A DNA stretch of 16,367 nucleotides. Source: Streptomyces roseochromogenus subsp. oscitans DS 12.976 (GTDB lineage: Bacteria > Actinomycetota > Actinomycetes > Streptomycetales > Streptomycetaceae). This document shows positions 441 to 16,367 of this stretch, piece by piece. A model generated the notes under the pieces. It was not told the DNA's origin, did no database searches, and worked only from the letters and a program-made list of their open reading frames with translations. Within the stretch, counting starts at the first letter, position 1. Every line of letters begins with the position of its first letter. The stretch is taken from contig NZ_CM002285.1 of the NCBI RefSeq assembly GCF_000497445.1, forward strand, positions 3,724,030-3,740,396, given 5' to 3'. The translations under genes and the position numbers were made by a program.

Positions 441-641
441 CGGCGCGGCCAGCCATGGCTATAGATGGAGTTCCCGACCGCGCCGGCCCGCGCACCCCGA
501 AGGTCGGGCGTGCCCTGTCGTGGTGACCGGCCCCTGGGCGCTGCCGCCGGCGGCGCGCACGGCGAGCGGGCCCTGCGCATGTCCCCTTCTCCGTCCCCTC
601 GGGACCCCCTTGGGACACGGACCCTTAAGGACCCCTCTTTG

Positions 642-2045
642 GTGACGAACAGAAACAGAGCACGTCATCTGCTCGGCTATCTGCTGCTCGTCGTGGCGCC
701 GGTCGCCCTGGCGTTGGTGCTGCTGGCCGGGTTGGCCGAACCGCGGCACTCAGGCCACTCGGCCGCCGCGTCGAGCCCGTCCCGGCTGCTGCCGGCGCTG
801 GCCGTCATCCTGGTGGTGGTCCGGCTGGTGGGAGCCGCCCTCAGACGGCTGGGCCAGCCCGCGGTGGTCGGTGAGATCGTCGCCGGCATCGTTCTCGGCC
901 CGTCCGTCCTCGGCTTCTTCCTGCCGGACGTGCAGCGGGCCGTCTTCCCCGCCTCGATCCTGCCGTCCCTGGACACCCTCGCCCAGCTGGGCGTGGTGCT
1001 GTTCATGTTCCTCGTCGGCCTGGAACTGCCCTTGGGCCTGCTGCGCCGCAGCGGCTCGGCGGCCGCGGCGCTCGCGCAGGCCAGCACGGCGGTGCCCTTC
1101 CTGTGCGGTGCGGCGCTCGCCGCGGTGCTGCTCGACTCGTACCGGCCCGCCGGCGCCTCCCGGCTGACGCTGGTCATGTTCGTGGGTGTCGCCTTCGCGA
1201 TCACCGCGTTCCCCGTGCTGGCGCGGGTCCTGGGCGAACAGCGGCTGACCCACACCCCACTCGGCACCCTGGGCATGGCCACGGCCGGGATCGGCGACGT
1301 CATCGCCTGGTGTCTGCTCGCCGCCGTGACGGCGGTGGCCACCAGCGCCTCGGCCGCGCCCACCGCGCTCACGTGCGCGCTGATCGTGGTCTACGCGGCC
1401 GTCATGTTCTTCGTGGTCCGGCCGGCCCTCACCCGGGTCGCGCCCCGCTTCGAGGGGGCGGGGCAGCCACTGGTGGCGGCGGCCGTGCTGACCACCACGC
1501 TGGTCTCGGCCTGGCTCACGGACCGCATCGGCGCGCACGCCATCTTCGGGGCGTTCATCGCGGGCGTGGTGATGCCCCGCAACTCGGTGGCGATCCAGCG
1601 GATCGCGGACCGGGTGGAGGGCCTGACCAGCTGGGTGATGCTGCCCGTCTTCTTCGCCGTGGTCGGGCTGAAGCTCGACCTGCCCGCGGTGGGCGGTCCC
1701 CGGGACTGGGGGGTGCTCGCGCTGATCGTGCTCCTCGCCTCCGTGGCCAAGTTCGGCACGGTGGCACTGTTCGCCCGTCTGCTGGGCCGCAACCGGCGGG
1801 ACGCGGCCGCCCTCGGGCTGATGATGAACTGCCGTGGCGTCACCGAGCTGATCGTGCTTCAGCTCGGGCTGACCCTCGGCGTCCTGTCCCAGCAGCTGTT
1901 CTCGATGCTCACCTGCATGGCGCTGGTGACCACGGCCACGACCGGACCACTTCTGCGCAGGCTGCGGCTGGACCGCAGCGGTTCCGATTCCACCCGCAAC
2001 ACCACGGAGGCTCCGTTGTTGACCAGCAGTGAGGGGACGACATGA
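642..2045 (+). CDS. CPA2-family cation/proton antiporter
   Basis: A polytopic inner-membrane protein of 467 residues, with about a dozen hydrophobic segments, resembling KefB/NapA-type monovalent cation:proton antiporters. Recognisable family stretches include GEIVAGIVLGPSVLGF, GVVLFMFLVGLELP, ITAFPVLARVLGE, GAFIAGVVMPR and NCRGVTELIVLQLG. The start is set at GTG 642, preceded by AAGGA at 627-631; an upstream in-frame ATG at 579 would only add a Pro/Ser/Arg-rich stretch. In the ion-binding helix the usual paired acidic motif (DD or ND) reads GD (G218-D219), so ion coupling may differ. It is the first gene of a four-gene operon and its stop overlaps the next start as ATGA. Antiporters of this type are found in several Hpg-containing peptide clusters, so a role in export or ion homeostasis during production is plausible but unproven. 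Confidence 0.85.
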   Translation: MTNRNRARHLLGYLLLVVAPVALALVLLAGLAEPRHSGHSAAASSPSRLLPALAVILVVVRLVGAALRRLGQPAVVGEIVAGIVLGPSVLGFFLPDVQRAVFPASILPSLDTLAQLGVVLFMFLVGLELPLGLLRRSGSAAAALAQASTAVPFLCGAALAAVLLDSYRPAGASRLTLVMFVGVAFAITAFPVLARVLGEQRLTHTPLGTLGMATAGIGDVIAWCLLAAVTAVATSASAAPTALTCALIVVYAAVMFFVVRPALTRVAPRFEGAGQPLVAAAVLTTTLVSAWLTDRIGAHAIFGAFIAGVVMPRNSVAIQRIADRVEGLTSWVMLPVFFAVVGLKLDLPAVGGPRDWGVLALIVLLASVAKFGTVALFARLLGRNRRDAAALGLMMNCRGVTELIVLQLGLTLGVLSQQLFSMLTCMALVTTATTGPLLRRLRLDRSGSDSTRNTTEAPLLTSSEGTT

Positions 2046-3472
2046 GCGTCACATCCCACCACGACGTTCTCGTCCTCGGCTCCGGACCCGGTGCCTCGGT
2101 GCTCGCCACAGTGCTGGCCCGGGCCGGCTCGGACGTCCTCGTCGTCGGCGAGGACACCCACCCGCGCTACCGGCAGGGCGAGACGTCCACACCCTTTCTG
2201 TCCTGGCTGCTGCGGCTGCTCTCCGCCCGGTACGACGTCCCGGAGTTCGCCCACCTCGCCGCGTACGACACCGCCCGCGAGCAGGTGAGCCGACGGGTCG
2301 GAGTGGAACGCTCGATCGGCTTCGCCCAGGGCGGGCGCGAGCGCCGGACGGCGCTGCCGCGCGCCGCGGCCGGGGCCTTGCTGTACCGGCAGGACGTCGA
2401 CGCCCACCTCTTCCACACCGCCGCGCTGCACGGCGCCCGGGTCCGCCAGCAGGCCAAGGTCGTCAAGGCCGAGGTGACCGCGGACCAGGTACTGGTGACG
2501 ACCGCGCGCGGCGAGACGTTCTCGGCGCGCTTCCTGGTGGACGCGAGCGGCCGCGACTCGGCCGCCCTGGCGGCGCTCGGCGCCGAGGTGCGCGAGGGGG
2601 CCGCGGCGGACGGGCCGCGGACGCGTACGGTGCACACCCATCTGATCGAGACGGGCCTGCCCGCCGCGGACGGCACCACGCACCACCTGTTCGACGGCGG
2701 CTGGCTGACGGTCACCCCGTTCACCGGCGGCGGGGTCAATCCCGTGACGGGCGTGCGCTTCACGGTGGACGCCGACCGCTTCGAACAGGACGAGGATCCG
2801 GAGCGGGAGTTCCGGGCCCTGCTGGAGCGGGTGCCCGAGCTGCGGCCGGGCCGGATCGCGCCGGTGCAGCCCTGGCACTCCACCGGGGTGCAGCAGTACG
2901 CCCGCGAGCAGCGTGCGGGGGACCGCTGGTTCGCGCTCGGCGCGAGCGCCGGTTTCACCGATCCGTTCCTCGCGGGTGAGCTGGTCCACGAGTTGCAGGT
3001 GGTGAACGCGCTGGCGTGGCGGCTGATCAAGGCCCTCGCCGCGGACGACCTGCGCGGCACGTACTTCGCCGAGGTGGCCGCGCTCGACGAACGCCTGCGC
3101 TCGGCGCAGGCCACGCTGGTCGCCGACTTCCTCGGAGCCGGCGCCGACCCGGCACGTCTGGACCGGTTCGTCGAGCGCTGGGAGCTGGCCGGTTTCTACG
3201 CGACGCTGCGGCTGCGGGACGCGGTCGTGTCCCTGCCCGGCTCCGACGGCCCGGCGCTGGCGTACGAGGGTCTCGTGCCCGACGACGACCTGGAGACGCT
3301 GCGGAAGGTGACCCCGCCCGCGTTCCGGTCGGGTATGACCGCGTTGCGCGAACCGGGCCGAGGCCTCACGGCCGTGGGCCGACTGCGCGCGGCGGCCCGG
3401 ACCAGTCCCTCCCCCGAGATCCAGCGGCTGCTGCTGGCCGCCACCCCCGACCTAGTGCGAGGCCGCCTGTGA
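2042..3472 (+). CDS. Flavin-dependent halogenase-like protein lacking the halogenase signatures
   Basis: A 476-residue FAD-binding protein of the flavin-dependent halogenase/monooxygenase superfamily. The N-terminal dinucleotide motif is GSGPGA (13-18), so the last Gly of GxGxxG is Ala. It is clearly a paralogue of the next gene: HPRYRQGETSTP against HPKFAVGESTIP, YRQDVDAHLFHTAALHG against FRQDTDTHLFHAAVRHG, and FLVDASGRDS against YLVDASGFRS. The diagnostic WxWxIP motif is WLTVTP here (221-226), and the position matching the candidate catalytic Lys of the neighbour is Glu (E89). It is also about 70 residues shorter at the C-terminus. It probably does not make hypohalous acid; it could be an oxidase or hydroxylase, or a partner protein of the active halogenase. 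GAGGGG at 2031-2036 is the ribosome binding site. The start overlaps the antiporter stop (ATGA), which implies translational coupling. Confidence 0.8.
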   Translation: MSVTSHHDVLVLGSGPGASVLATVLARAGSDVLVVGEDTHPRYRQGETSTPFLSWLLRLLSARYDVPEFAHLAAYDTAREQVSRRVGVERSIGFAQGGRERRTALPRAAAGALLYRQDVDAHLFHTAALHGARVRQQAKVVKAEVTADQVLVTTARGETFSARFLVDASGRDSAALAALGAEVREGAAADGPRTRTVHTHLIETGLPAADGTTHHLFDGGWLTVTPFTGGGVNPVTGVRFTVDADRFEQDEDPEREFRALLERVPELRPGRIAPVQPWHSTGVQQYAREQRAGDRWFALGASAGFTDPFLAGELVHELQVVNALAWRLIKALAADDLRGTYFAEVAALDERLRSAQATLVADFLGAGADPARLDRFVERWELAGFYATLRLRDAVVSLPGSDGPALAYEGLVPDDDLETLRKVTPPAFRSGMTALREPGRGLTAVGRLRAAARTSPSPEIQRLLLAATPDLVRGRL

Positions 3473-5115
3473 ACGCCACGACCGACCATGACGTCATCGT
3501 GCTGGGAGCCGGGATCGCCGGCTCCATGCTCGGTGCGATCCTCGCCCGGCAGGGTGCGTCGGTCCTGCTCGTGGACGCCGGCTCGCACCCGAAGTTCGCG
3601 GTCGGCGAGTCGACGATCCCCGAGACGCTGGTGACGCTCCGGATGATCGCCGAGCGGTACGACGTGCCCGAGATCGCGACGCTGACGAACACCAAGTTCC
3701 TCATGGAACAGGTCAACACCTCGTTCGGGGTGAAGGACCACTTCGGCTTCCTGCTGCACCGCGAGGGCGAGGAGCCGGACTGGCGCGAGGCCGTCCAGCT
3801 GAGCACGGGCGGCGGGGTGTACAAGACCAGTCACCTGTTCCGGCAGGACACCGACACCCACCTGTTCCACGCCGCGGTCCGGCACGGCTGTGTGCCCAAG
3901 CTGAACCACCTGGTCTCCGACGTGGAGATCGAGGACGACCACGTCGCCGTGGTGGGCACCGACGGGAGCCGGATCACCGCTCGCTACCTCGTGGACGCGA
4001 GCGGCTTCCGCTCGCCGCTCGCCGCGAAACTGGGGCTGCGCGAGGAGCCGTCCCGGCTCAAGCACCACTCCCGGTCGCTGTTCAGCCACATGATCAACGT
4101 GCGCCAGGACGAGGTGCTGGGCCACACCGGCGATCAGTGCCCGCCGACGCGCTGGTACGACGGCACGATGCACCACACCTTCGACCGCGGCTGGTTCTGG
4201 GTCATCCCGTTCGACAACAACCCCGCATCCCGCAACCCGCTGGTCAGCGTGGGGGTGACCCTGGACGAGCGCAAGTACCCGAAGAACCGGGATCTCACGC
4301 CCGAGCAGGAGTTCTTCGAGCTGGCCTCGCGGTTCCCGGCGGTGAAGCGGCAGTTCGAGAACGCCGTCTCGGTGCGGGAGTGGGTGTCCACCGAGCGGCT
4401 GCAGTACTCCGCGACCCGCTCGGTGGGGGCCCGCTGGTGCCTGATGTCGCACGCGGCGGGCTTCATCGACCCGCTGTACTCACGGGGCATCTCCAACACC
4501 GCGAACGTGGTGAACGTCCTGGCCCACCGGCTGCTGGGGGCGCTGCGCGAGGACGACTTCACCGTGGAGCGCTTCGAGTACGTGGAGCGGGTGGAGCAGG
4601 GACTTCTCGACTACAACGACGCCCTGGTGAACGCCTCGTTCATCTCCTTCGGCCACTACCCGCTGTTCAGCGCGGTGTTCCGGGTGTGGACGCTCGGCAC
4701 GGTGTTCAGCGCCAACCGGCTGCAGGCCGCCATGATGCGGTTCCGGCGCACGGGTGACCCGGAGCACCTCAGGGCCCTGGAGGACCACGACCATCCCGGC
4801 CTGTGGTGGCCCGACGCCCGCTACCTCGAGTTGCTGGACGCGGTCGTCGAGCAGACCTCGCGCTACGAGCGGGGCGAGGTGACCGGCGATGAGGCGGCCC
4901 AGTACCTCTTCCGCCGGCTGTCCTCGGCCGACTTCGTCCCGAAGCCGTTCGGTTTCGCCGACATCGAGCACCGCTTCCTGCGGCCCACGCCCGGGCGGAT
5001 GGTCTCGCTGCTGAAGTGGGCCCTCACCGAGGCACCGGATGACGTGCGCGATCTGTATCTCGGCCCGGTGACGGAGTCACTGAAGGGCCTCGTCGCCGGA
5101 CGCCGGCCGGCGTAG
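3469..5115 (+). CDS. FADH2-dependent halogenase
   Basis: A 548-residue flavin-dependent halogenase, a cytosolic enzyme that uses FADH2, O2 and halide to halogenate an aromatic or activated substrate. Visible signatures are the FAD motif GAGIAG (13-18), the halogenase motif WFWVIP (242-247, WxWxIP) and a Lys in GVKDHFGF (K89) at the region where phenol/pyrrole-type halogenases such as CndH and PltA place the Lys that activates HOCl. GFIDPLYSRGI (331-341) matches the family's conserved GFIDPL region. The GTG start at 3469 overlaps the previous stop (GTGA) and follows GAGG at 3459-3462. The flavin reductase lies 9 bp downstream. Given the Hpg genes opposite, a phenolic Hpg residue (free, PCP-bound or in the peptide) is the favoured substrate, but this is inference. 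The C-terminal ~200 residues are less conserved in my reading. Confidence 0.87.
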   Translation: MNATTDHDVIVLGAGIAGSMLGAILARQGASVLLVDAGSHPKFAVGESTIPETLVTLRMIAERYDVPEIATLTNTKFLMEQVNTSFGVKDHFGFLLHREGEEPDWREAVQLSTGGGVYKTSHLFRQDTDTHLFHAAVRHGCVPKLNHLVSDVEIEDDHVAVVGTDGSRITARYLVDASGFRSPLAAKLGLREEPSRLKHHSRSLFSHMINVRQDEVLGHTGDQCPPTRWYDGTMHHTFDRGWFWVIPFDNNPASRNPLVSVGVTLDERKYPKNRDLTPEQEFFELASRFPAVKRQFENAVSVREWVSTERLQYSATRSVGARWCLMSHAAGFIDPLYSRGISNTANVVNVLAHRLLGALREDDFTVERFEYVERVEQGLLDYNDALVNASFISFGHYPLFSAVFRVWTLGTVFSANRLQAAMMRFRRTGDPEHLRALEDHDHPGLWWPDARYLELLDAVVEQTSRYERGEVTGDEAAQYLFRRLSSADFVPKPFGFADIEHRFLRPTPGRMVSLLKWALTEAPDDVRDLYLGPVTESLKGLVAGRRPA

Positions 5116-5124
5116 GGGCGGCCG

Positions 5125-5667
5125 ATGACCACCGTGGACAGCGATCCGAGGCATCCGAGGTATCCGGGGTATCCGGGGTATCCGGGGTATGTGGACGCCT
5201 CCGAATACCGCACGCTGATGGGCGGGTTCCCGACCGGAGTCGTGGTCGTCACCACGACGGGCGACGACGGGACGCCGTACGGCCTGACTTGTTCCTCCCT
5301 GTCGAGCGTGACCGTGCGGCCGCCGACTCTGCAGGTGTCTCTGATGTCCACCAGCAAGGTGCTGGCGGCGATCCTCGGCAACCAGCGGTTCGCGGTGAAC
5401 CTGCTGCACGCCCGGGCCCGGGAGGCGGCATCGGTGTTCGCCTCGCCCGTCGACCGGTTCGCCAGGGTGCCCTGGCGGCCGACCCCCCGGCTGGGCCTGC
5501 CGTGGCTGCACCGGGACGCGTTCGCCGTGGCGGAGTGCAGGCTGGCCCGGACGCTGGAGATCGGCGACCACACCATGCTGTTCGGCGAAGTGACGGCCGT
5601 GGACCACGCGGACGACGTACCGCTTCTGTACGGCAGACGGCAGTACTCGGTCTGGCCCGGGGACTAG
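5125..5667 (+). CDS. Flavin reductase (NAD(P)H:flavin oxidoreductase) of the halogenation system
   Basis: A 180-residue protein of the flavin-reductase-like domain family (HpaC/PrnF type), which supplies free FADH2 to the halogenase. The core begins at MGGFPTGVVVVTT (~31-43), followed by GLTCSSLSSVTVRPP and LQVSLMSTSKVLAAI, the usual flavin-contacting strand and loop, then FAVNLLHARARE. The length fits the family apart from an N-terminal extension of about 28 residues made of five tripeptide repeats (DPR, HPR, then three YPG). It is the last gene of the rightward operon, 9 bp after the halogenase stop, and is followed directly by a strong hairpin. Co-transcription with a halogenase supports its role, although reductases of this type also serve monooxygenases. 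Confidence 0.88.
   Translation: MTTVDSDPRHPRYPGYPGYPGYVDASEYRTLMGGFPTGVVVVTTTGDDGTPYGLTCSSLSSVTVRPPTLQVSLMSTSKVLAAILGNQRFAVNLLHARAREAASVFASPVDRFARVPWRPTPRLGLPWLHRDAFAVAECRLARTLEIGDHTMLFGEVTAVDHADDVPLLYGRRQYSVWPGD
5143..5187 (+). repeat. Five in-frame 9-bp repeats encoding (D/H/Y)P(R/G)
   Basis: Five consecutive 9-bp units: GATCCGAGG, CATCCGAGG, then three identical TATCCGGGG copies, followed by TATGTGG. They are codon-aligned in the reductase gene and encode residues 7-21. The identical copies mark recent slippage or expansion at the 5' end of the gene. Unit number could change without breaking the frame. Confidence 0.9.
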
Positions 5668-5683
5668 GGCCTGGCCGGAAACG

Positions 5684-5737
5684 GACAGAAGGTGGGGTGC
5701 CGGCGAAGGAGACTTCGCCGGCACCCCACCTTCTGTC
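5684..5737. terminator. Bidirectional terminator hairpin between convergent operons
   Basis: A perfect 25-bp inverted repeat: arms 5684-5708 and 5713-5737 with a 4-base GAGA loop, a GNRA-type tetraloop in rightward RNA. It lies 16 bp after the flavin reductase stop and 16 bp before the end of the convergent hpgT. There is no U-tract on either side, as is common for actinomycete terminators. It probably ends transcription from both sides. Confidence 0.9.
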
Positions 5738-5753
5738 GTGGAACCCCGTCGGC

Positions 5754-7064
5754 TCAACGGCGGGACGCGATGAACGCCGCCAGACGGTCCAGGGCCTCAT
5801 CGATCTCGGCCGGGGAGACGGCGCTGCACGACAGGCGCAGCCGCCGGTCGGCGTCCGGATGGTCGTAGAAGTGCCGCATCGGTACCCAGAGCACCCCGTG
5901 CTCCTGGGCGGAGTGCTCCAGCGCAGCGTCGTCCGCGGCGAACGGCACGTCCACCACGACGAAGAAGCCGCCGCGTGGGGTGTTCCAGCGCACTGGGCCA
6001 CCGGCGGGGAAGCGTGCCGCCAGGCCGTCGAGCAGATGGCGGAGATTGCGCTGGTACACCGCGCGTTCCGCGGTGTTGGCGGCGACCAGGCTGCACCCGT
6101 GGGTCACCAGGTGCCCGCCGACGACGGCCTGCGCGACCGGGGAGGTGTTCACCGTGAGCATGCCCTTGATCTTGGCGAGTTCGTCGGCGAACAGACCCAG
6201 GCCGCCGTCGGCGGCCTCGACCGGGGTGTCGGCCACGACATAGCCGACGCGGGCGCCGGGCAGGCACGTCTTGGCGAACGAGCCGAAGTAGACCACCCGG
6301 CGGCCGGTGTCGAGTGCCTTCAGGGTCGGCAGGTGCTCCCCTCCGTGGAACAGCCCGTACGGGTTGTCCTCCAGAAGCAGCAGGTCGAGCGCCGCCGCCG
6401 CGTCCAGCAGGGCGTGCCGGACAGCCAGGTCCATGCTCATCCCGGAGGGGTTGGCGAAGTCCGGCATGACATAGCAGGCACGCGGGCGCCGGCCCTCGGC
6501 GCGCAGCCGGGTCACCGTACGGGCGAGCGCGTCGAGGTCGACCCCGTCCGTGCCACCGGGTACCGGCACCACGGGCAGGTCGACCAGGGCAGCCGCCCCG
6601 GTCAGGCCCACATAGGTCGGGGCGACGGCGAGCAGCACGTCCCGCGGGTCCGCGCGCAGCGCCCGCAGGGTCAGCACCATCGCCTCCTGGCAGCCGACGG
6701 TGACCACCACGGACTCCGGGTCCACGTCGATGCCTTCGTCGACGTGGAGCATCCGGGCGACCAGGTCGTGGATGACGCCCTTGGTACGCCCGTACTGGAA
6801 CAGGGTCCTGCGCACCTGCTCGGGGGTGAACCCGCGGTCGGCGGCGAGGTGGTGCCGGTACGCGGCGAGGTACCGCTCCGGTGCGCGTGCGTCGAACAGG
6901 TCCTCGTGCGGCCGGCCGGCAGCCAGCGAGATGGCGTCGGGGTAGCGGTGCGACACCTCGTTGAGGAAGTTCATCGACTCCAGCACCGGCCCGGCCAGCG
7001 CGGGATGCAGGTCCCCGGCCCGCAGCAGGGCGGAGCGCACCTGGGCGGCCACGGCCTCGCTCAC
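5754..7064 (-). CDS. hpgT: 4-hydroxyphenylglycine aminotransferase (HpgT-like)
   Basis: A 436-residue fold-type I PLP aminotransferase that converts 4-hydroxyphenylglyoxylate to L-4-hydroxyphenylglycine, typically using tyrosine as amino donor. Visible motifs are the FQYGRTKG stretch (89-96), PDFANPSG (201-208, Asn of the PLP site), LEDNPYG (231-237, Asp and Tyr contacting PLP), GSFAKTCLPGARVG (261-274, Schiff-base Lys K265) and the C-terminal Arg R410 in RLRLSCS that binds the substrate carboxylate. The start is a GTG overlapping the hmaS stop (GTGA), so the two Hpg genes are translationally coupled. This pairing with hmaS is the main reason to call HpgT rather than a general MocR/AAT-like aminotransferase. 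It is the last gene of the leftward operon, ending at the hairpin. Confidence 0.88.
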   Translation of the reverse strand: MSEAVAAQVRSALLRAGDLHPALAGPVLESMNFLNEVSHRYPDAISLAAGRPHEDLFDARAPERYLAAYRHHLAADRGFTPEQVRRTLFQYGRTKGVIHDLVARMLHVDEGIDVDPESVVVTVGCQEAMVLTLRALRADPRDVLLAVAPTYVGLTGAAALVDLPVVPVPGGTDGVDLDALARTVTRLRAEGRRPRACYVMPDFANPSGMSMDLAVRHALLDAAAALDLLLLEDNPYGLFHGGEHLPTLKALDTGRRVVYFGSFAKTCLPGARVGYVVADTPVEAADGGLGLFADELAKIKGMLTVNTSPVAQAVVGGHLVTHGCSLVAANTAERAVYQRNLRHLLDGLAARFPAGGPVRWNTPRGGFFVVVDVPFAADDAALEHSAQEHGVLWVPMRHFYDHPDADRRLRLSCSAVSPAEIDEALDRLAAFIASRR

Positions 7065-8128
7065 CGGTTCTGCCCGGTGAGCGAGGCTTCCTCCACCGCC
7101 TCGTAGAGGGCCCTGATGTTGCCGCTTCCGAAGTGGCGGGCGCCGAAGCGCTCGATGACCTCGTAGAACAGCGTGCCGCTCGGGTGCGTGGATCGGGTGA
7201 AGATCTGGTACAGCTGACCGTCGTGGTCCTCGTCGACCAGGATGTCGAGATCCCGGAGTTCGGCGACCGGGTGCCGGGCCGGCGTGAGGCGCTCGGTGAG
7301 CCGGTCGTAGTAGGTGTCCGGGGTGTCCAGGAAGCCGACGCCGCGCTCGCCGAGTACGGCGACGGAGCGGACGATGTTGCGGGTGGAGAACGCCACGTGC
7401 TGGACGCCGGCCCCGCCGTTGTCCCGCAGGAAGCGGTCTATCTGCCCGGAGTCGGCGCTGGTGTCCGGCTCGATCAGGGTGAGGGTGACGTCACCGGACG
7501 GGCTCTGCACCACCTTGGAGTCCATCGCCTGGGTGCCCACCGCGATGCGCTCCGCGAAGGTCATCCGGAAGCCGAGGGTGCGCTCGTAACGCTCCACGGT
7601 GGGGCCGAGGTCACCGGCGTCCAGGCAGACGGCGAAGTGGTCGACCCGCTCCAGGCAGGTGGACGAGGCCGGCTGCGGGGTGAGCGCGCCGAACCCCGGC
7701 AGCCATATCCCCTCGGTGCCGGCGGGCGGCTGCACCAGGGTGTGCACGACGTCGCCGAAGGCGGCGACGGCCGCTAGTGTCGCTCCCCCGGCGTCGGCCG
7801 GGGCCTGCGTGGAGCGGGCGCCGGCCGCCACCGCCGCCCGGTGGGTGCCGGCCGCGTCGGCGGTGCGCAGCGCGATGTCCGCCACGCCGAATCCGTGCCG
7901 CTCGGTGAACTCCCGGGTGTGCGGGCCCTCGGTGACCAAGGCGGCGATGTCGTTCATGCCCACGGCGACCGTGCGTCCGCCGCCGGGCAGCGCCCTGGCA
8001 CCCCACACCCCGAAGCCGTAGCGTTCCACCAGTTCGGCCACGGCCTCGTCGGCGTCGGGGGCGTAGAACTCGAGGTGGTTGAGTGTGACGTCCGTGGCGT
8101 GGTCCGTCACGTCGGTCGGTGACTGCAT
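7061..8128 (-). CDS. hmaS: 4-hydroxymandelate synthase (HmaS)
   Basis: A 355-residue non-heme Fe(II) dioxygenase of the HPPD family that converts 4-hydroxyphenylpyruvate to 4-hydroxymandelate, the first Hpg-specific step. It has two vicinal-oxygen-chelate halves, with the metal triad in the C-terminal half: H164 (RVDHFAV), H244 (VQHVAFS) and E323 (FYEVIERFG). In the C-terminal helix, FGSGNIRALYEAVE has Ile (I338) where homogentisate-forming HPPDs have Phe (GNF); this swap is a known discriminator of mandelate synthases. The length matches HmaS (~355), whereas bacterial HPPDs are often ~360-380. The ATG start follows AAGGA (8134-8138) at a good spacing. Its stop overlaps hpgT, which confirms the Hpg context. 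The hydroxymandelate oxidase needed between the two is not in the window. Confidence 0.92.
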   Translation of the reverse strand: MQSPTDVTDHATDVTLNHLEFYAPDADEAVAELVERYGFGVWGARALPGGGRTVAVGMNDIAALVTEGPHTREFTERHGFGVADIALRTADAAGTHRAAVAAGARSTQAPADAGGATLAAVAAFGDVVHTLVQPPAGTEGIWLPGFGALTPQPASSTCLERVDHFAVCLDAGDLGPTVERYERTLGFRMTFAERIAVGTQAMDSKVVQSPSGDVTLTLIEPDTSADSGQIDRFLRDNGGAGVQHVAFSTRNIVRSVAVLGERGVGFLDTPDTYYDRLTERLTPARHPVAELRDLDILVDEDHDGQLYQIFTRSTHPSGTLFYEVIERFGARHFGSGNIRALYEAVEEASLTGQNR

Positions 8129-8235: not shown

Positions 8236-9249
8236 CTACTTCGCTTCCAGCACGGAGAAGGCGGAGTCCGGCACGGCACGCACGGCGGAGAGGGTGTAGC
8301 CCGCCTCGGCGAGCAGCGCCTCGAACTCCCGGGCCGAGCGCTCCCGGCCGCCGGTGAGCACCATCATCCCGATGTCGCTCCACTTGCTCGGGTGCCACGA
8401 ACCGTCCTCGGGCACCAGCATCTCGACGATCATCAGCCGACCGCCGGGTTCGAGCGCGGCGCGCGAGGCCCGCAGGATCGACACGCACTGGTCGTCGGTC
8501 CAGTCGTGCAGCACGCTGCAGAGCAGATGGGTGTCGGCGCCCGCGGGGACGCGCTCGAAGAAGTCGCCGGCCGCCAGCTCGCAGGCCCGTCCGTCGAAAG
8601 TGCCGGCGGCGCGGACACTCGCCACCACGGCGGGCCGGTCGAACAACACGCCCCGCAGCCGCGGTGCGCGGCGCAGGATCGCGTCGAGCTGGTAGCCGTC
8701 CCCGCCGCCGAGGTCCATCACCGTGCCGCACTCGCTCCAGTCGGTGTCGGTGGCGAAGCGCGGATAAAGCCGCGCGGCCCGCTCCCTCATCCGTTGCAGG
8801 AACGCCTGGTCGGAGGCGCCGTCGGCGTCCTTGTGGGCGAAGAAGCCGCCGTGCTGGTCGTCGAAGACCGACCTGCCGGTGCGGAACGTGTCGATGCCCC
8901 GCAGCCAGGCGCGCTGGCTCTCCACGTTCAGCAGCGACGTGCGGACGCTGCCCTCGGCCCCGGCACGCAGCCGGTGCCCGGCCGGAGTGAGCCGGAAGAC
9001 GCGGGCGCCTTCCTCGGTGAGCACGCCGACCGAGGCCAGGGCGCGCAGCAGCCGGTGGAGGGCATCGGGGTGGGCGCCGACGGCGTCGGCGATCTCGTCG
9101 GCGGCACGCGGGCCGTCGGCGAGGACGTCGGCCACGCCGAGTTCGGCGGCGATGCGCAGGACGTGCGGCAGGATCGCCACGCAGCTGTCGTCGATCAGGC
9201 CGAGATAGTCGTCGAGCAGCAGTGCGGGCTGCGGCGCCGGCTCAGGCAC
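8236..9249 (-). CDS. SAM-dependent O-methyltransferase (plant-type/COMT family)
   Basis: A 337-residue class I methyltransferase with an N-terminal winged-helix dimerisation domain (~12-100, including [17 protein letters not shown] and [14 protein letters not shown]) and a C-terminal SAM-binding domain. Motif I is [10 protein letters not shown] (177-186), FDRP follows at 203-206, and LHDW carries the family's catalytic-base His (H248), followed by GGRERS (300-305). This indicates O-methylation, most often of a phenol. The start is GTG 9249: GGAGGA (9255-9260 on the plus strand as TCCTCC) lies five bases upstream, inside the last codons of mbtH, giving an 8-bp overlap. Placement between the NRPS/mbtH genes and the Hpg genes suggests it methylates an Hpg or other aromatic residue of the peptide; this is inference. 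N-methylation is less likely for this family. Confidence 0.85.
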
Positions 9250-9460
9250 TCGTGTCCTCCATCGCGCGGACCAGGCTGCGCGGGCGCAGGTCGGTCCAGT
9301 GGGCGTCGATGTAGTCGAGGCACGCCTGGCGCGAGTCCTTGTCGTGCGCGACGCTCCAGCCGGCGGGCACATCGGCGAAGGCCGGCCACAGCGAGTGCTG
9401 GCCCTCCTCGTTGACGAGCACGAGGTAGCTGGCGTCGTTGTCCTCGAACGGGTTGGTCAT
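9242..9460 (-). CDS. MbtH-like protein
   Basis: A 72-residue MbtH-family protein, a small soluble chaperone and activator that binds NRPS adenylation domains and is often needed for their folding or activity. It shows the family signature: NPFED at the N-terminus, [21 protein letters not shown] in the middle with the conserved Ser-Leu-Trp-Pro, and WTDLRPRSL near the end. The ATG start overlaps the NRPS 2 stop (ATGA), and AGGAAAGGA lies upstream. Its coupling to NRPS 2 implies it serves the A domains of this cluster. Confidence 0.96.
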
Positions 9461-12400
9461 CGTTCCGTTTCCTTTCCTGCGGGGTTCTGGGCTTGGTTCT
9501 CGGTGAGGTTCGGGGTGGGGTGGGCGCGGGCGCGGTGCGCGAGGTCGCGCAGCCGGTCGGAGACGCAGCGGCCGATGGCGGCCAGCGCGCCCGGGTCGGT
9601 CAGCATCAGGCCGTGGTCGACGTCGACCTGGTGGCGGCGGATGGCGCCGGTGACGTACGGCTGCCAGTCGCCGGCGGTCGGCCAGTCCGCGCCTCGTCCG
9701 CCGGTGGCGGTGACGAACAGCAGGTCGCCGTCGAACACCTCCGGGGCGAAGTTCTGCTGCGCCAGGAAGTTGCGCCGGAACACCTCGACCGCCAGGGCCA
9801 GTTGGCGCTCGTCGAGGGTGGCCAGCGCGCTGCCGCCGCGCTCCAGCACGGCGCGGGCGGCGGGCACGGTCAGCTGCTCGGTACGGTCCCAGGTGTGCCC
9901 GGCGTAGTGCAGCAGGCCGGTCAGGACGGCGTGCGTGTCCGGGGTGTAGTCGCGCGCTCCGTCGAAGCGCGGGTAGGCGTCGAGGATCGCGAGCAGGGCG
10001 ACCTCCTCGCCCCGGGACTGCAGCCGGGTGGCGAGCCGGTGGGCGAGCACGCCGCCGAAGGACCAGCCGAGCAGATGGACCGGCCCGTGCGGCTGCACCT
10101 GGCGGATCTGTGCAGCGTAGTCGTCCGCGATGTCCTCCAGCGTGGCGCCGGGCAGGGGGGCGCCGGACGCTCCGTCCAGGCCGCGGGACTGCAGGGCGTA
10201 CACCGGGTGTTCCCGGCCCAGATGGCGCAGCAGGCCGCTGTAGCACCAGCCGAGTCCGGCGGCCGGGTGCACGCAGAACAGCGGTGCGCGCCGGCCTGCC
10301 GGGCGCAACGGCAGCAGGACGTCGAATCCGCCGCGTCCGCCGCCGGGTGCCTCGCCGAGGCGCTCGGCGAAGCCGGCGACGGTGGGCGCGGTGAACAGCG
10401 TGCGGATGCCCGTCTCCACGCCGAGCACCTCCCGCACCCGGCCGATCAGCCGGGCCGCGAGCAGCGAGTGGCCGCCGAGATCGAAGAAGTCGTCGTGGAC
10501 GCCGATCCGGTCCAGGCCGAGGATGTCGGCGAAGAGCCCGCACAGCACCTCCTCACGGGGCGAACGCGGGGCGCCGGCCGGGTCGGTGGTGGGCTGTGCG
10601 GGCGCGGGAAGCGCCCGCCGGTCGAGCTTGCCGTTCGGGGTGAGCGGGAACCGGTCGAGCACGACGACGGCCGACGGGACCATGGCGTCGGGCAGATGGG
10701 CGGCGGCGTGCTTGCGCAGGGCCGGCGGGTCGGTGTCCTCGCCCGGAGCGGGTACGACGTAGCCGACGAGCCGGTTCTCGCGCAGCACGACCTCCGCGTG
10801 GCGTACGGCGGGGTGGCGTTCCAGTACGGCGGCCACCTCGCCCGGTTCGATCCGCTGTCCGCGCAGTTTCACCTGGTCGTCGGTGCGGCCCGCGTACTCC
10901 AGCGCCCCGTCGTGGCGCAGCCGGGCCAGGTCGCCGGTGCGGTACAGGCGGGCGCCGGGCGGGCCGTAGGGGTCGGCGACGAACCGCTCGGCCGTGCGGC
11001 CGGGCTGGGCGAGGTAGCCGCGAGCCAGCTGGCGGCCCCCGAGGTACAGCTCGCCGGTGACGCCGATCGGCACCGGCCGCAGCGCGCTGTCCAGGACGTA
11101 GGTGCGGGTGTTCCACACCGGCCGGCCGATGGGCACCGTGTCTCCTCCGTCGCACCGCCAGGCGGTGACGTCGACGGATGCCTCGGTGGGTCCGTACAGG
11201 TTGTGCAGGCCGGCGTCCAGGGTGGCCAGGCAGCGGGCGGCGAGCTCGGCGGGCAGGGCCTCGCCGCTGCAGATCACCCGGGTCAGGCTGGTGCAGGCGG
11301 CCGCGGCGGGCTCGTCGAGGAAGGTCCGCAGCATCGACGGCACGAAGTGGACGGTGGTGACCCGTTCGGCGGCGATCAGCGCGGCGAGGTAGGCGGGGTC
11401 GCGGTGGCCGTCGGGGCGGGCCACCACCAGGGTGGCGCCCTGGAGCAGCGGCCAGAGGAACTCCCAGACGGAGACGTCGAAGCCGGCCGGGGTCTTCTGG
11501 AGCACCCGGTCCTCGGGGGTCAGACGGTACGCGTCCTGCATCCAGGCGAGCCGGTTGACGATGCCCTCGTGCGGGACGACGACGCCCTTGGGCCGGCCCG
11601 TCGATCCCGAGGTGTACAGCACATAGGCCGGGTGCCCGGGACGCAGCCCGCGATCGCCGAGGCCGTCGTCGGCGCCCGGGTCCGGCGTACCGGACGGCTC
11701 GGCGCGCAGGGCGATCCGCGGGAACCCGCCGGGCAGCTCGGTGGTGCCGTCGAGGGTGAGGACGACGTCCGGGGCGGACTCCTCGGTCATCAGGCGCAGC
11801 CGCTCCGCCGGCTGGCCCGGGTCCAGCGGCAGGTAGGCGCCGCCCGCCTTGAGTACGGCGAGGACGGCGACGACGAGTTCGACGGAGCGGGGCAGGGCGA
11901 GCCCCACCAGCCGCTCGGGGCCGACGCCGTGATCCACCAGGCGGCGGGCGAGCCGGTTGGCGCGGGCGTCGAGTTCGCCGTACGTCACCTGCTCGCCCTC
12001 GAAGACGACCGCCGTGCGGTCGGCCGAGCGGGCCGCCTGGTCCTCGAACAGCCGGGGCAGGCACAGGTCCGGCACGACGTGGCCGGTGTCGTTCCAGTCG
12101 TGGACGACGCGCCGTTCCTCGACGGGGTCGAGCAGCCGTACGGCGGAGACCGGCGCGTCCGCGGCGGTGGCGAACCGGGTGAGCACCTGCCCGAGCCGAG
12201 CCACCAGGTCACGAGCCGTCTCCGCCGGGAAGAGGTCGGCGCGATGGGCGATGCGCAGCCGCAGCCGTTCACCGGGCACCACCACCAGGGTCAGTGGGTA
12301 GTGGGTGGCGTCCTCGACGCTCATCGACGTCGCCAGCATGCCGTCGGCGCCGGCCTTCAGGCCGTCGTGGTCGACCGGGTAGCTCTCGAAGACGACCAGC

Positions 12401-13449
12401 GTGTCGAACAGCCGGTCGAGGCCGGACCAGCGGGTCACCTCCGCGAGCGAGGGGTGCTGGTGGCCGGTGAGCGCCGCCTGCTCCCGCTGCACGCGCGCCA
12501 GCAGGGCCGACAGGGGCTCCGCAGGGTTGAACCGGACGCGGACCGGCAGGGCGTTGATGAACAGCCCGACCATCTGGTCCGCCGCGGGAATCTCGGGCGG
12601 CCGGCCGGCGACGATCGCGCCGAAGACGACGTCGTCCTGGCCGGTGGCGTGCCGCAGCAGGGTGCCCCAGGCGCACTGCACGACCGTGTTGAGTGTCGTG
12701 CCGTTGCGCCGGGCGAGCGCCCCCAGGTCGGTGGTGACGTCGGTGGGCAGCAGGCATTCGGCGGCCTCCGGAAGCGCCGCCCCTCGGGCCGGGTCGGGCG
12801 GGGCCATGAACGTCCCGGCGGCAAGTCCGTCCAGCGCCTGCCGCCAGGCGTGTTCGGCGGCGGCCGCGTCCCGGTCGGCCAGCCAGGCCAGGTAGTCCCG
12901 GTAGGGCGGCGCGGGCGGGAGCTGCCGGCCGGTGTAGAGGGCGAACAGCTCGCGCACCGCGATCGCCAGCGACCAGCCGTCCAGCAGGATGTGGTGGTGC
13001 GTCAGGACGAAGCGGTGCTCCCGCTCGCCGGTGCGCACCAGCGTGCAGCGCAGCAGCGGCCCCTTGGCGGGGTCGAACGGGCGCACCCGGTCCGCGGTGA
13101 GCAGCCGGGCGTACGCGTCCTCGCCGGCCCCGCGCAGGTCCGTCTCGGTCCACGGCACGGAGACCGCGCGCGGTACCACCTGCGCGGGCACACCGGACTT
13201 GCCGAAGCGGAAGGAGCCACGCAGGTTCGGGTGCCGGCGCAGCAGCGCCTCGACCGCGCCACGCAGCCGGCCGGCGTCGACGCCCCCGCTCAGGGTGAGC
13301 GTCAGCTGGACGTTGTAGACCTCCGTACCGGACGGGTCGAACAGGGCGTGGAAGAGCAGCCCTTCCTGCAGCGGGGTCAGCGGGAGGACATCCTCGATCC
13401 GTGACCCGGCGCGCGCCGCGGTGGCTTTTCCGGTCTGTGATCCGCGCAC
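9457..13449 (-). CDS. Nonribosomal peptide synthetase, terminal module C-A(Ser)-PCP-TE
   Basis: A 1330-residue termination module. The C domain (~18-440) opens with [17 protein letters not shown], typical of DCL domains that accept a D-configured donor, and has active-site [10 protein letters not shown] (151-160). The A domain (~465-945) has [11 protein letters not shown] (612-622) and code residues D658 V659 W662 H701 I726 S728 L751 V759 D760 K941, i.e. DVWHISLVDK, a serine code. The PCP carries its phosphopantetheine Ser in LGGHSL (S995). The type I TE (~1045-1310) has GWSFGG (S1130), LDAYP (D1157) and DHGL (H1279) as a likely triad. The GTG start at 13449 is one base after the NRPS 1 stop, with AGGAGG upstream; longer in-frame extensions would run through the NRPS 1 gene. 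The DCL domain fits the upstream E domain. The TE releases the chain by hydrolysis or cyclisation; which cannot be told. Confidence 0.93.
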
Positions 13450-13450
13450 G

Positions 13451-16367
13451 TCAGTGCCCCTCCTCGTCGAAGTCGAAGGAGCCGGGATCGTCTTCTTCGA
13501 GTTCACCCAGCTCGTCCTCGAACAGGTCCAGGTCGTCCTGGCTGAGGTCGGCCAGGCTGACGTCCGACGGTGTCGGCGCGGAGCGGACGGGGGACGCGGC
13601 GCACACGGTGAGCCGGTCCAGTACGGCGAACCAGGTGTCCACCAGGTCGGCCGCGGCGTTGTCCGGCAGGAGCGCGTCCGCCCAGGCGAGGCCCACGACG
13701 AGCCGGTCGTCCCGCACCATCGCCGTGATCTCCAGGCCGTGCGCCACGGGCAGCGCGGGGTCGGCCGCGCCTCCGAACGCACCGGGCTCGGGCGCCACGG
13801 ACCAGCCGGCCGCCGGGGCGTCAGCGCCTCCGAAGCGGCCCAGGTAGTTGAAGGCGGCCTCAGGTGTGGCCGCGTCGGCCAGCACGGATCGCCCCCGCGC
13901 GGAGAGGTGACGCAGCAGCCCGAACCCGGTGCCCTTCTCGGGGACCGCGCGCAGCTGGTCCTTGAGGTGCCCGAAGGCACGGCCGAGGGCGACGTCGTCG
14001 TACGGCTCGGTGATCCAGGTCCCCGAGCCGGTGTCCAGGCGGACGGGATACACGCTGGTGAACCAGCCGACAGTCCGTGTCAGATCGATCGCGGGGTCGG
14101 TCTCGTCGCGTCCGTGGCCCTCCAGGTCCAGCCGCACCGCACCGGTGGTGGCGCCGGTGCGCCGGGTGCGCCAGTCGGCGAGCGCCAGCGCGAGGGCGCC
14201 GAGCAGCACCTCACCGGTGGTGGCGTTCAGCGCGGCCGGCACGGTCGTCAGCAGCGGTGCGGTCCGCTCGGCGGACAGGCGCCCGCTGTGCTGCCGTACG
14301 GCGGACTCGGTGTCGCGTGCGGGGTCCACGGGGCCGTCCAGCAGGGGGGCGGCCGGGGCCGTCATGCGGGTCCAGAACGGCAGTTCGTCCTCCCGGTCCC
14401 GGGCCTGTCCGGGCAGCAGGTGGGCCCACTGCCGCAGCGACGTCCCGGTGTCCGGCAACTCGCCGGTGCGCCAGGCGGTGTCCAGGTCGGAGAGCAGGAT
14501 CTGCCATGACACGGCGTCCACGACCAGGTGGTGCAGGACGAGTACGAGCCGGCCGCTGCGGCCGGGGCGGTCGAGCCACACCGCCTGCGCCATCACACCC
14601 TGCCGGGGGGCCAGCCGGTCGCGGGCCGCCTCGGTGAGCGCGGGCAGCTCGGCGAGCTCGCCGTGCGCGTACCGCAGCAGATCGGCGGCCCGGACCGTGC
14701 CCGCCGGGCGGATGATCGTCGCCCACTTCTGCTCGTCGGACACGTCGTGCTCGTCGCGCTCGCCGGTGGTGAGCACGGTCCTGAGCGCGGCGTGCTGATC
14801 GAGGAGCTGTTGCAGCAGCCGCTCCAGCGTGTCCCGGTCCAGGCCACGCGGGGTGCGGATCCACAGGGACTGGCTGAACCGGTCGACGGGGCCGCCGCGT
14901 TCGGCCAGCCAGTGCGCCATCGGAGTCAGCGGCAGATCGCCGTCCTCCGCCATGGTGACGGCCGCCGTCGGCGTGCTGCCCGCCACCGCCGCGAGCGCGG
15001 CCACGGTCCGCCGGTCGAACACATCACGCACCGTCAGGTTCACCCCCTCGGCGCGGGCCCGGCTGACCAGGCGTATGGAGGTGATGCTGTCGCCGCCCAG
15101 GTCGAAGAAGCCGTCGTCGACGCCGACTTCGGGGACACCGAGCACCTCGGCGAAGACGCTGCACAGCACTTCCTCGACCGCGTTCGACGCCGAACGCGCG
15201 GTTCCGGCGGTGGTCTGCGGTTCGGGCAGGGCCGCGTGGTCGAGTTTGCCGTTCACGGTCAGCGGCAGCCGCTCCAGGACGACCACGGCCGACGGGACCA
15301 TGTAGTCCGGCAGCGCCGCGGCCAGCATGCGCCGCAGATCGCCTCCGTCGGCGCCGGTCCCGGCCGGCACGGCGTAGCCGACCAGGCGGCCCGATTCCCG
15401 CTGGACGACGACGGCGTGGGCGACCTCGGGCAGCGCGGTCAACGCGGCCTCCACCTCGCCGAGCTCGATGCGGTGGCCGCGCACCTTCACCTGGCCGTCA
15501 CCGCGTCCGAGGAACTCCAGGCCCTCGGCGCCCCAGCGAGCCAGGTCGCCGGTGCGGTACATGCGGCTGCCCGGCGGACCGTAGGGGTCGGCCACGAACC
15601 GGGACGCGGTCAGACCGGGCCGGTCGTGGTATCCGCGCGCCAGACCCGCGCCGGCCACGTACATCTCTCCCGGCACACCGGGCGGGACCGGACGCAGCCG
15701 TTCGTCGAGGACCCGGACGGTGAGGTCGGCCAGCGGGGCGCCGATCGGGCTGCCGAGCCGGGCGCGGACGTCGGCGGGGCCGAGGGCCCGGGCGGTGACG
15801 TGCACGGTGGTCTCGGTGATGCCGTACATGTTGATCAGCAGCGGTGCGTCGGCGGGGTGGTCGGCGTACCAGGCGTCCAGGCGCCGGGTGTCGAGCGCCT
15901 CGCCACCGAACACGACCGCCCGCACGGGCAGTTCGCCCCCGGGACGCAGAGCGGACAGCAGATGGAACGCCGACGGCGTCTGGCTGAGCACCGTGACCCG
16001 CTCCTGAATCAGCAGGCGCAGGAAGTCCTCCGGGGAGCGGCTGACGTCGAACGGTACGACGACCAGGCGCCCGCCGTGCAGCAGAGCCCCCCACAGCTCC
16101 CACACGGAGAAGTCGAACGCATAGGAGTGGAACAGCGCCCACACGTCCGACGCGGTGGGCCGCAGGTGCCGTTCGGTGGCCGCGAACAGGCGCAGCACGT
16201 TCCGGTGGGTCACCACGACGCCCTTGGGGCGTCCGGTGGAGCCGGAGGTGTAGATCAGGTAGGCGGCGTTGTCCGGGTGGGTGCCGGGATCGGGCAGCGG
16301 GGCATCGGAGTGGGCCGCGGCGTCGCCGACGGCGACCGCGGGCAGCCCCGCGGGCAGCCGGTCCGCG
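13451..16367 (-). CDS. Nonribosomal peptide synthetase, A(Thr)-PCP-E, partial
   Basis: The 5' part lies beyond the right edge; about 971 residues are visible, starting inside the A domain. A3 ([11 protein letters not shown], fragment ~39-49) is intact. Code residues D85 F86 W89 S128 V152 G154 M180 V188 H189 K374 spell DFWSVGMVHK, close to the threonine code DFWNIGMVHK. The PCP has LGGDSI (Ser 427); the GGDS form is typical ahead of epimerisation domains. The E domain (~475-930) has [10 protein letters not shown] (612-621) and FNYLGRF, both intact, so the residue should be D-configured Thr or allo-Thr. The C-terminal ~30 residues are strongly acidic ([16 protein letters not shown] region), a candidate docking segment. 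The gene is followed by NRPS 2 after one base. A C domain is expected upstream but not seen. Specificity is code-based inference. Confidence 0.92.

Follow-up and report, generated by a model that had tools for sequence, protein, structure and literature searches.

According to passages of the armeniaspirol work (PMC13311259), Ams8 has an asparagine (N90) at the lysine position and a glutamate (E337) in the flavin adenine dinucleotide (FAD) site; deletion of ams8 abolishes the product, deletion of ams9 or ams22 cuts it 100-fold, and an Ams8–Ams9 heterodimer is predicted with an interface predicted template modeling score (ipTM) of 0.86, whereas the homodimers reach 0.77 and 0.73. In excerpts from other studies, PltD is described as an aromatizing dehydratase without halogenase motifs, to which McsG is likened (PMC12670696, citing Yi et al. 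2022), and as not clearly a halogenase (PMC6864650), while Mpy10 and Mpy11 of the marinopyrrole pathway, two flavin-dependent halogenases, are named together for bipyrrole homocoupling (PMC12942903). The K87A variant of PltM is reported to lack activity both in vitro and inside cells (PMC6424973), and the passages on PltM, found also in PMC5395296, make no mention of a dead partner. Here we describe two adjacent genes of Streptomyces roseochromogenus subsp. oscitans DS 12.976, gene A (2042..3472, + strand, 476 aa) and gene B (3469..5115, + strand, 548 aa), in a stretch of 16,367 nucleotides (the window) that covers positions 3,724,030-3,740,396 of a 9.66 Mb contig. Protein A has a halogenase fold without the catalytic motifs, and B has all of them. 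We lean towards A being the non-catalytic subunit of a putative two-subunit flavin-dependent halogenase in which B is the live one, most likely of the Ams8/Ams9 kind and used here in a cluster for a nonribosomal peptide with pyrrole and hydroxyphenylglycine.

Gene B runs without interruption from GTG (3469-3471) to TAG (5113-5115), and its product matches the tetracycline 7-halogenase CtcP (7xgb) over 528 residues (phmmer E 1e-192), including the C-terminal region. Counting the GTG as residue 1, it carries GAGIAG at the GxGxxG site, the catalytic lysine K89, WFWVIP (W242-P247) for WxWxIP, and DPLYSRG within FxDPxxSxG. By sequence, B is thus an ordinary CtcP/PltM-class flavin-dependent halogenase. 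The frame of gene A is likewise intact, from ATG (2042) to TGA (3470-3472), and none of the four motifs survives in its product: GSGPGA replaces GxGxxG, with A18 at the third glycine, E89 occupies the catalytic-lysine position, WLTVTP (W221-P226) stands for WxWxIP, and DPFLAGE for DPLYSRG. In the alignment with PDB sequences, E89 lies opposite the lysine in the GIKLGF stretch of PltM, which is Lys87 by our own count once the 20 extra residues of that chain are subtracted. In addition, G36 takes the place of the Asp that ends the second Rossmann strand, with E37 and D38 coming next, and, numbered from B, W244 and I246 are both replaced by T, H328 by A301, S338 by A311 and G340 by E313. In a set of 63 intact relatives, 82 columns are at least 97% conserved; A departs from them at 30 and keeps 63%. 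We infer that A no longer uses flavin.

Compared with B, protein A lacks 71-72 residues, among them a block of 35 after residue 411 and one of 14 after residue 202; the region of the larger block corresponds to the C-terminal part that borders the substrate cleft in PltM, as described in excerpts of PMC6424973. A still has the Rossmann fold, GxG, DASG and the RQD stretch. An AlphaFold2 model of A built from 11 sequences (predicted local distance difference test score 78.9, predicted template modeling score 0.85) finds CtcP chains as its best structural matches in the PDB (the first two with template modeling scores of 0.85-0.87; 26-27% identity). In NCBIfam, A comes closest to the monooxygenase family QhpG, at a score far under the cutoff (62.6 vs 240 bits), and a PHROGs search with A gave no match. 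A preliminary description made from the sequence had read both frames and their coordinates, the 476 intact codons of A and the numbered motif residues of both proteins correctly, and the two genes do look translationally coupled, as it stated. It passed over DPFLAGE, G36, A301 and the residues that A lacks against B; its proposals that E89 sits at the catalytic position and that the fold is retained hold in the alignment with PltM and in the match of the model to CtcP.

The loss is not private to this strain. A protein search returned four orthologues of A with 71-88% identity, from S. tibetensis, S. sp. URMC 125 and two further contigs. In the alignment, where the orthologues are 72-88% identical to A, E89, A18 and A311 are invariant across the five sequences and mean column identity is 85%; all five also have other residues at the third Gly of GxGxxG, at the Rossmann-end Asp and at the His that precedes the flavin loop. 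This shared loss argues that A is not simply decaying and makes chance or plain decay unlikely, in agreement with the earlier suggestion of a maintained protein that had given up its halogenase signatures. No orthologue of A was found in the genome contigs searched (43 loci, all with at most 34% identity), and in draws of the genus and of relatives A matched 1 of 392 genomes (E 1e-65) and 1 of 395 (E 1e-120), its own genome only.

In the phylogeny, A and its orthologues fall with 12 further lysine-less relatives into a clade of 17 rows (SH-aLRT support 99), hereafter A-type, in which the lysine position is occupied by E in nine, G in seven and A in one; the clade persists in other genomes, one of them listed as Pseudonocardiaceae. 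The first tree joined long branches, and a second one with more rows keeps the clade and still warns of long branches, for the window A and its orthologues with L077_12623. The best tree sets the A-type group and a PltD-like group, labeled by resemblance with PltD itself outside the alignment and tree, on one side of a branch (support 97). A constraint joining A-type sequences with intact upstream halogenases was not rejected (p-AU 0.328), so the A-type group may be either a degenerate upstream copy or an older branch.

A-type genes recur together with relatives of B (B-type), and the two are inherited together. Pairs were read directly at three loci, namely the window, S. sedi (L077) and S. 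sulphureus (L171), where the A-type sequence is outside the tree and was classed by motif and by closeness to P0009. Five more pairs were judged by the equal size of the contigs (867780, 11157, 86966, 45646 and 10033 bases) on which separately listed A-type and B-type proteins lie. The matches listed contain 19 A-type sequences, four of them on contigs under 3.4 kb that are too short to tell; of the 15 that could be assessed, eight have a B-type partner, one has none in the 60 kb covered around it and six are undecided. Co-occurrence in other genomes, which the preliminary description had put forward as a check, is supported by this recurrent pairing. Distances among the eight A sequences correlate with those among their B partners (Mantel r 0.934, a value reached in 2 of 5000 permutations).

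We also surveyed tandem halogenases more widely. Among 120 readings of CtcP-like genes, taken from loci some of which overlap, adjacent same-strand genes with a gap under 600 bases form 24 distinct pairs. In 17 a B-type halogenase lies downstream, and this downstream copy retains all three motifs every time (17/17); in five of the 17, the lysine is missing from the upstream member (E, A, G, M and M). In the remaining seven, an intact halogenase is followed by a PltD-like protein, and two similar neighborhoods (L079 and L082) were excluded by gaps of 617 and 635 bases. The two copies with methionine at the lysine position (L083, from 7930; L095, about 11158-12771) keep the other motifs and precede an intact halogenase. 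As they fall in another part of the tree from the A-type clade, there were at least two losses of the upstream lysine, one in an E/A/G lineage and one in an M lineage. A few further cases were noted on the way: P0137 has Leu at the catalytic-lysine position; at L081 (about 9029-12176) an A-type gene with E at the lysine position lies directly upstream of an intact PltA-type, not CtcP-type, halogenase; and a single cluster of S. sedi (L077) holds both an intact halogenase with a PltD-like protein in overlapping frames (4076-7628, - strand) and an A-type gene with an intact halogenase (12662-16054, + strand).

The coupled operon opens with a CPA2-type cation:proton antiporter gene (465..2045, + strand; Pfam PF00999, E 1e-60; TIGR00932 under its cutoff), whose stop is shared with the start of A in an ATGA overlap. 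A and B overlap in GTGA. After a gap of nine bases, B is followed by a flavin reductase gene (5125..5667, + strand; Pfam PF01613, E 4e-37), the putative supplier of reduced FAD (FADH2) to B. With these two overlaps and the short gap, A and B look translationally coupled. A relative of the antiporter (at least 35% identity) is present at 8 of 16 other scanned loci. The N-terminus of the reductase (5125-5200) includes a repetitive stretch, RHPRYPGYPGYPGY, coded by near-exact 9-base repeats.

On the opposite strand lie a class I/II aminotransferase gene (5754..7064, - strand; Pfam PF00155), whose neighbors suggest a role as 4-hydroxyphenylglycine (Hpg) transaminase, and a gene for a protein of the 4-hydroxyphenylpyruvate dioxygenase (HPPD) family (7061..8128, - strand). 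The NCBIfam naming of the latter is 4HPPD, as TIGR01263 exceeds its cutoff, and its best PDB match is 2r5v (PCZA361.1, E 3e-97), above the HPPD entries. 2r5v is a hydroxymandelate synthase, and we read the window protein as a probable 4-hydroxymandelate synthase (HmaS) supplying Hpg. They are followed by an O-methyltransferase gene (8236..9372, - strand; Pfam PF00891, E 2e-38) and by the terminal module of a nonribosomal peptide synthetase (NRPS) with condensation, adenylation, thiolation and thioesterase domains (9457..13980, - strand; Pfam PF00668, PF00501, PF00550 and PF00975); the starts of both are not settled. Specificity codes read by eye from the NRPS genes (9457-16216 of the window, and on to 3,760,332 of the genome) suggest Ser for the terminal module, Thr, a Phe-like residue and Gly. 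The code of a stand-alone adenylation domain in the cluster resembles those of proline activators. Masked bases flank the window (C1:3,723,028-3,724,029 and 3,740,397-3,741,110), and the gene for the stand-alone domain probably extends into the first of these blocks.

The whole cluster, of antibiotic type, spans about 3,714-3,768 kb and is bordered by genes for ribosomal proteins and translation factors, which were recognised by eye. L-proline carrier-protein ligases are the best stand-alone PDB matches of the stand-alone adenylation domain, with multi-module NRPS chains scoring higher. Pfam and PDB searches also identified a peptidyl carrier protein, two acyl-CoA dehydrogenases, one of which best matches L-prolyl-carrier-protein dehydrogenase, a cytochrome P450 and NRPS genes, and hydroxy-acid-oxidase-like, FabH-like and LuxR-type proteins were recognised by eye. 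The cluster thus contains the proline-derived pyrrole genes expected around an Ams8/Ams9-type pair. A pattern search of 3,690-3,790 kb, of which 1.8 kb is masked, found no ketosynthase motif of a type I polyketide synthase (PKS) and no PltA-type halogenase.

The loci of other pseudo-halogenases look different. Six longer stretches of 40-99 kb each (G156, G186, G179, G315 C12, G212 C27 and S. sulphureus) all combine ketosynthase motifs, a proline-type adenylation domain and an antiporter. Counting all 16 loci scanned apart from the own-genome control, a ketosynthase or acyltransferase motif occurs in 10 and a proline-type adenylation domain in 12. The remaining six of the 16 (G212 C31, G315 C1, G159, L008, L017 and L033) show neither motif in the ~17-21 kb covered of each and may be of either type. 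The present setting, with pyrrole-starter genes, probable Hpg genes and NRPS genes without a PKS motif, is unusual in comparison with the PKS-bearing stretches. The same genome has a second halogenase locus (C1:about 3,012,950-3,016,710; L002, L055), with a PltA-like (444 aa) and a CtcP-like (561 aa) halogenase, both motif-intact, a flavin reductase, and ketosynthase motifs close by.

If A and B form one enzyme, the reductase next door would feed FADH2 to B, which would generate hypochlorous acid and chlorinate via K89. A would keep the halogenase fold without catalysis and serve as an obligate structural or substrate/carrier-positioning subunit, as proposed for Ams8. The substrate might be the aromatic ring of a pyrrole- and Hpg-containing nonribosomal peptide, either carrier-bound or as the finished peptide.

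Several observations weigh against this reading. What the overlap and the correlated distances establish is joint inheritance of the two genes, which need not mean contact between their products; the r of 0.934 has no background gene of the same genomes beside it, and in the eight pairs A changes at ~2.3 times the rate of B. The tandem loci were fetched for matching these families, so that 5/17 is not a random sample, nor are the five cases independent. A is likened to Ams8 by published description, with orthology not shown. Against a strict partnership, the A-type P0049 (G186) has no CtcP-type partner within 60 kb around it, its next gene being an intact PltA-type halogenase. Conversely, among the matches listed, the B relatives P0158 (74% identity), P0159 (71%), P0169 and P0171 have no A-type sequence on an equal-sized contig, and neither does P0178 of S. 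armeniacus.

The G186 case, an A-type gene in a PKS cluster without a CtcP-type partner, would also suit a repurposed stand-alone enzyme of PltD type, in which A, independently of B, would act on a carrier-bound intermediate in a reaction other than halogenation (dehydration/aromatization or other acid-base chemistry). The dehydratase role reported for PltD and its likeness to McsG in the portions of PMC12670696 cited above point the same way, as do the tree branch that has the A-type and PltD-like groups on one side and the fixed residue set that A has of its own at the former active-site positions. We nevertheless think this rather unlikely. The lack of a ketosynthase motif in 3690-3790 kb means that the known type of PltD substrate seems absent, and the PltD-like signature differs from that of A: of 12 such proteins, nine keep the lysine, 10 have Q in WxW and all have R and D in the flavin loop. 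The slot differs too, as PltD-like proteins form their own clade and lie downstream of an intact halogenase, whereas A-type genes lie upstream of a B-type one, and S. sedi has both kinds.

Quite unlikely, in our view, is that A is an active flavoprotein whose chemistry is new, such as hydroxylation or oxidation of the pyrrole or Hpg ring, with E89 and an open WLTVTP pocket favoring oxygen transfer. The retained Rossmann fold, GxG, DASG and RQD would allow it, QhpG is the best family match although far under cutoff, and A lacks WxWxI, a motif described in passages of PMC12670696 as blocking monooxygenase function in halogenases. However, none of the five orthologous sequences keeps the flavin-site residues (third Gly, Rossmann-end Asp, His), a pattern that speaks for flavin binding being weak or absent, and no monooxygenase motif set is seen in place of the lost halogenase set. 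The lost motifs, shorter chain and faster rate could finally mark A as a decaying duplicate without function. This is very improbable and was rejected on orthologue conservation: the five sequences have full-length frames down to 71% identity, shared substitutions and a high mean column identity, A is translationally coupled on both sides, and its lysine-less clade has lasted in other genomes.

A tentative extension of the two-subunit reading is that tandem CtcP-family halogenases of actinobacterial pyrrole clusters are heterodimers of which only the downstream subunit need be catalytic, so that the upstream one has repeatedly lost its lysine and turned to substrate or carrier docking. In this extension, the pair in the window would have moved with its pyrrole-starter genes from polyketide to nonribosomal peptide pathways and would act there on a peptide-type substrate, a kind not known for any member. 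If the proposed role of A is right, a group of halogenase look-alikes would be non-catalytic subunits, and their active neighbors may fail or mis-target when assayed alone in vitro. A with its four orthologues, the eight dead/live pairs and the second lysine loss (K to M) make the heterodimer question directly testable. The finding also draws attention to a peptide cluster, so far uncharacterised, in which pyrrole genes and probable Hpg genes occur together with a halogenase; our literature search found no paper with the word pseudo-halogenase, and the combination of Streptomyces halogenase, pyrrole and hydroxyphenylglycine nonribosomal peptide returned a software paper only.

Among the known systems, B belongs to the same class as CtcP and PltM, and A shares the predicted fold of CtcP but lacks the catalytic motifs. 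Mpy10 and Mpy11 resemble A and B by description only, as two halogenases of one reaction. Like PltD and McsG, A is a halogenase-like protein that has lost its motifs and lies near an intact halogenase, and PltD had been offered in the preliminary description as the precedent for a degenerate partner. It was set aside as first-choice model because it is reported, in the parts of PMC12670696 concerned, as an aromatizing dehydratase and because no PKS motif was found here; the pathway in which PltD is reported to act is of type I PKS.

Ams8 and Ams9 are the better precedent. The armeniaspirol scaffold is a PKS product, whereas the cluster around the window is of NRPS type, has probable Hpg genes and shows no type I PKS motif. 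Ams22, a PltA-type halogenase, is a further member of the armeniaspirol cluster, and no counterpart of it was found in 3,690-3,790 kb. The lysine position holds E89 in A and N in Ams8, while E313 of A (Q in one of the five sequences), which stands where B has G340, is near E337 of Ams8 by numbering alone. P0178 of S. armeniacus falls in the clade of B and is possibly Ams9. As far as the published passages describe the armeniaspirol cluster (BGC0002022), both systems place a lysine-less protein directly beside an intact CtcP-class halogenase, together with pyrrolyl carrier chemistry.

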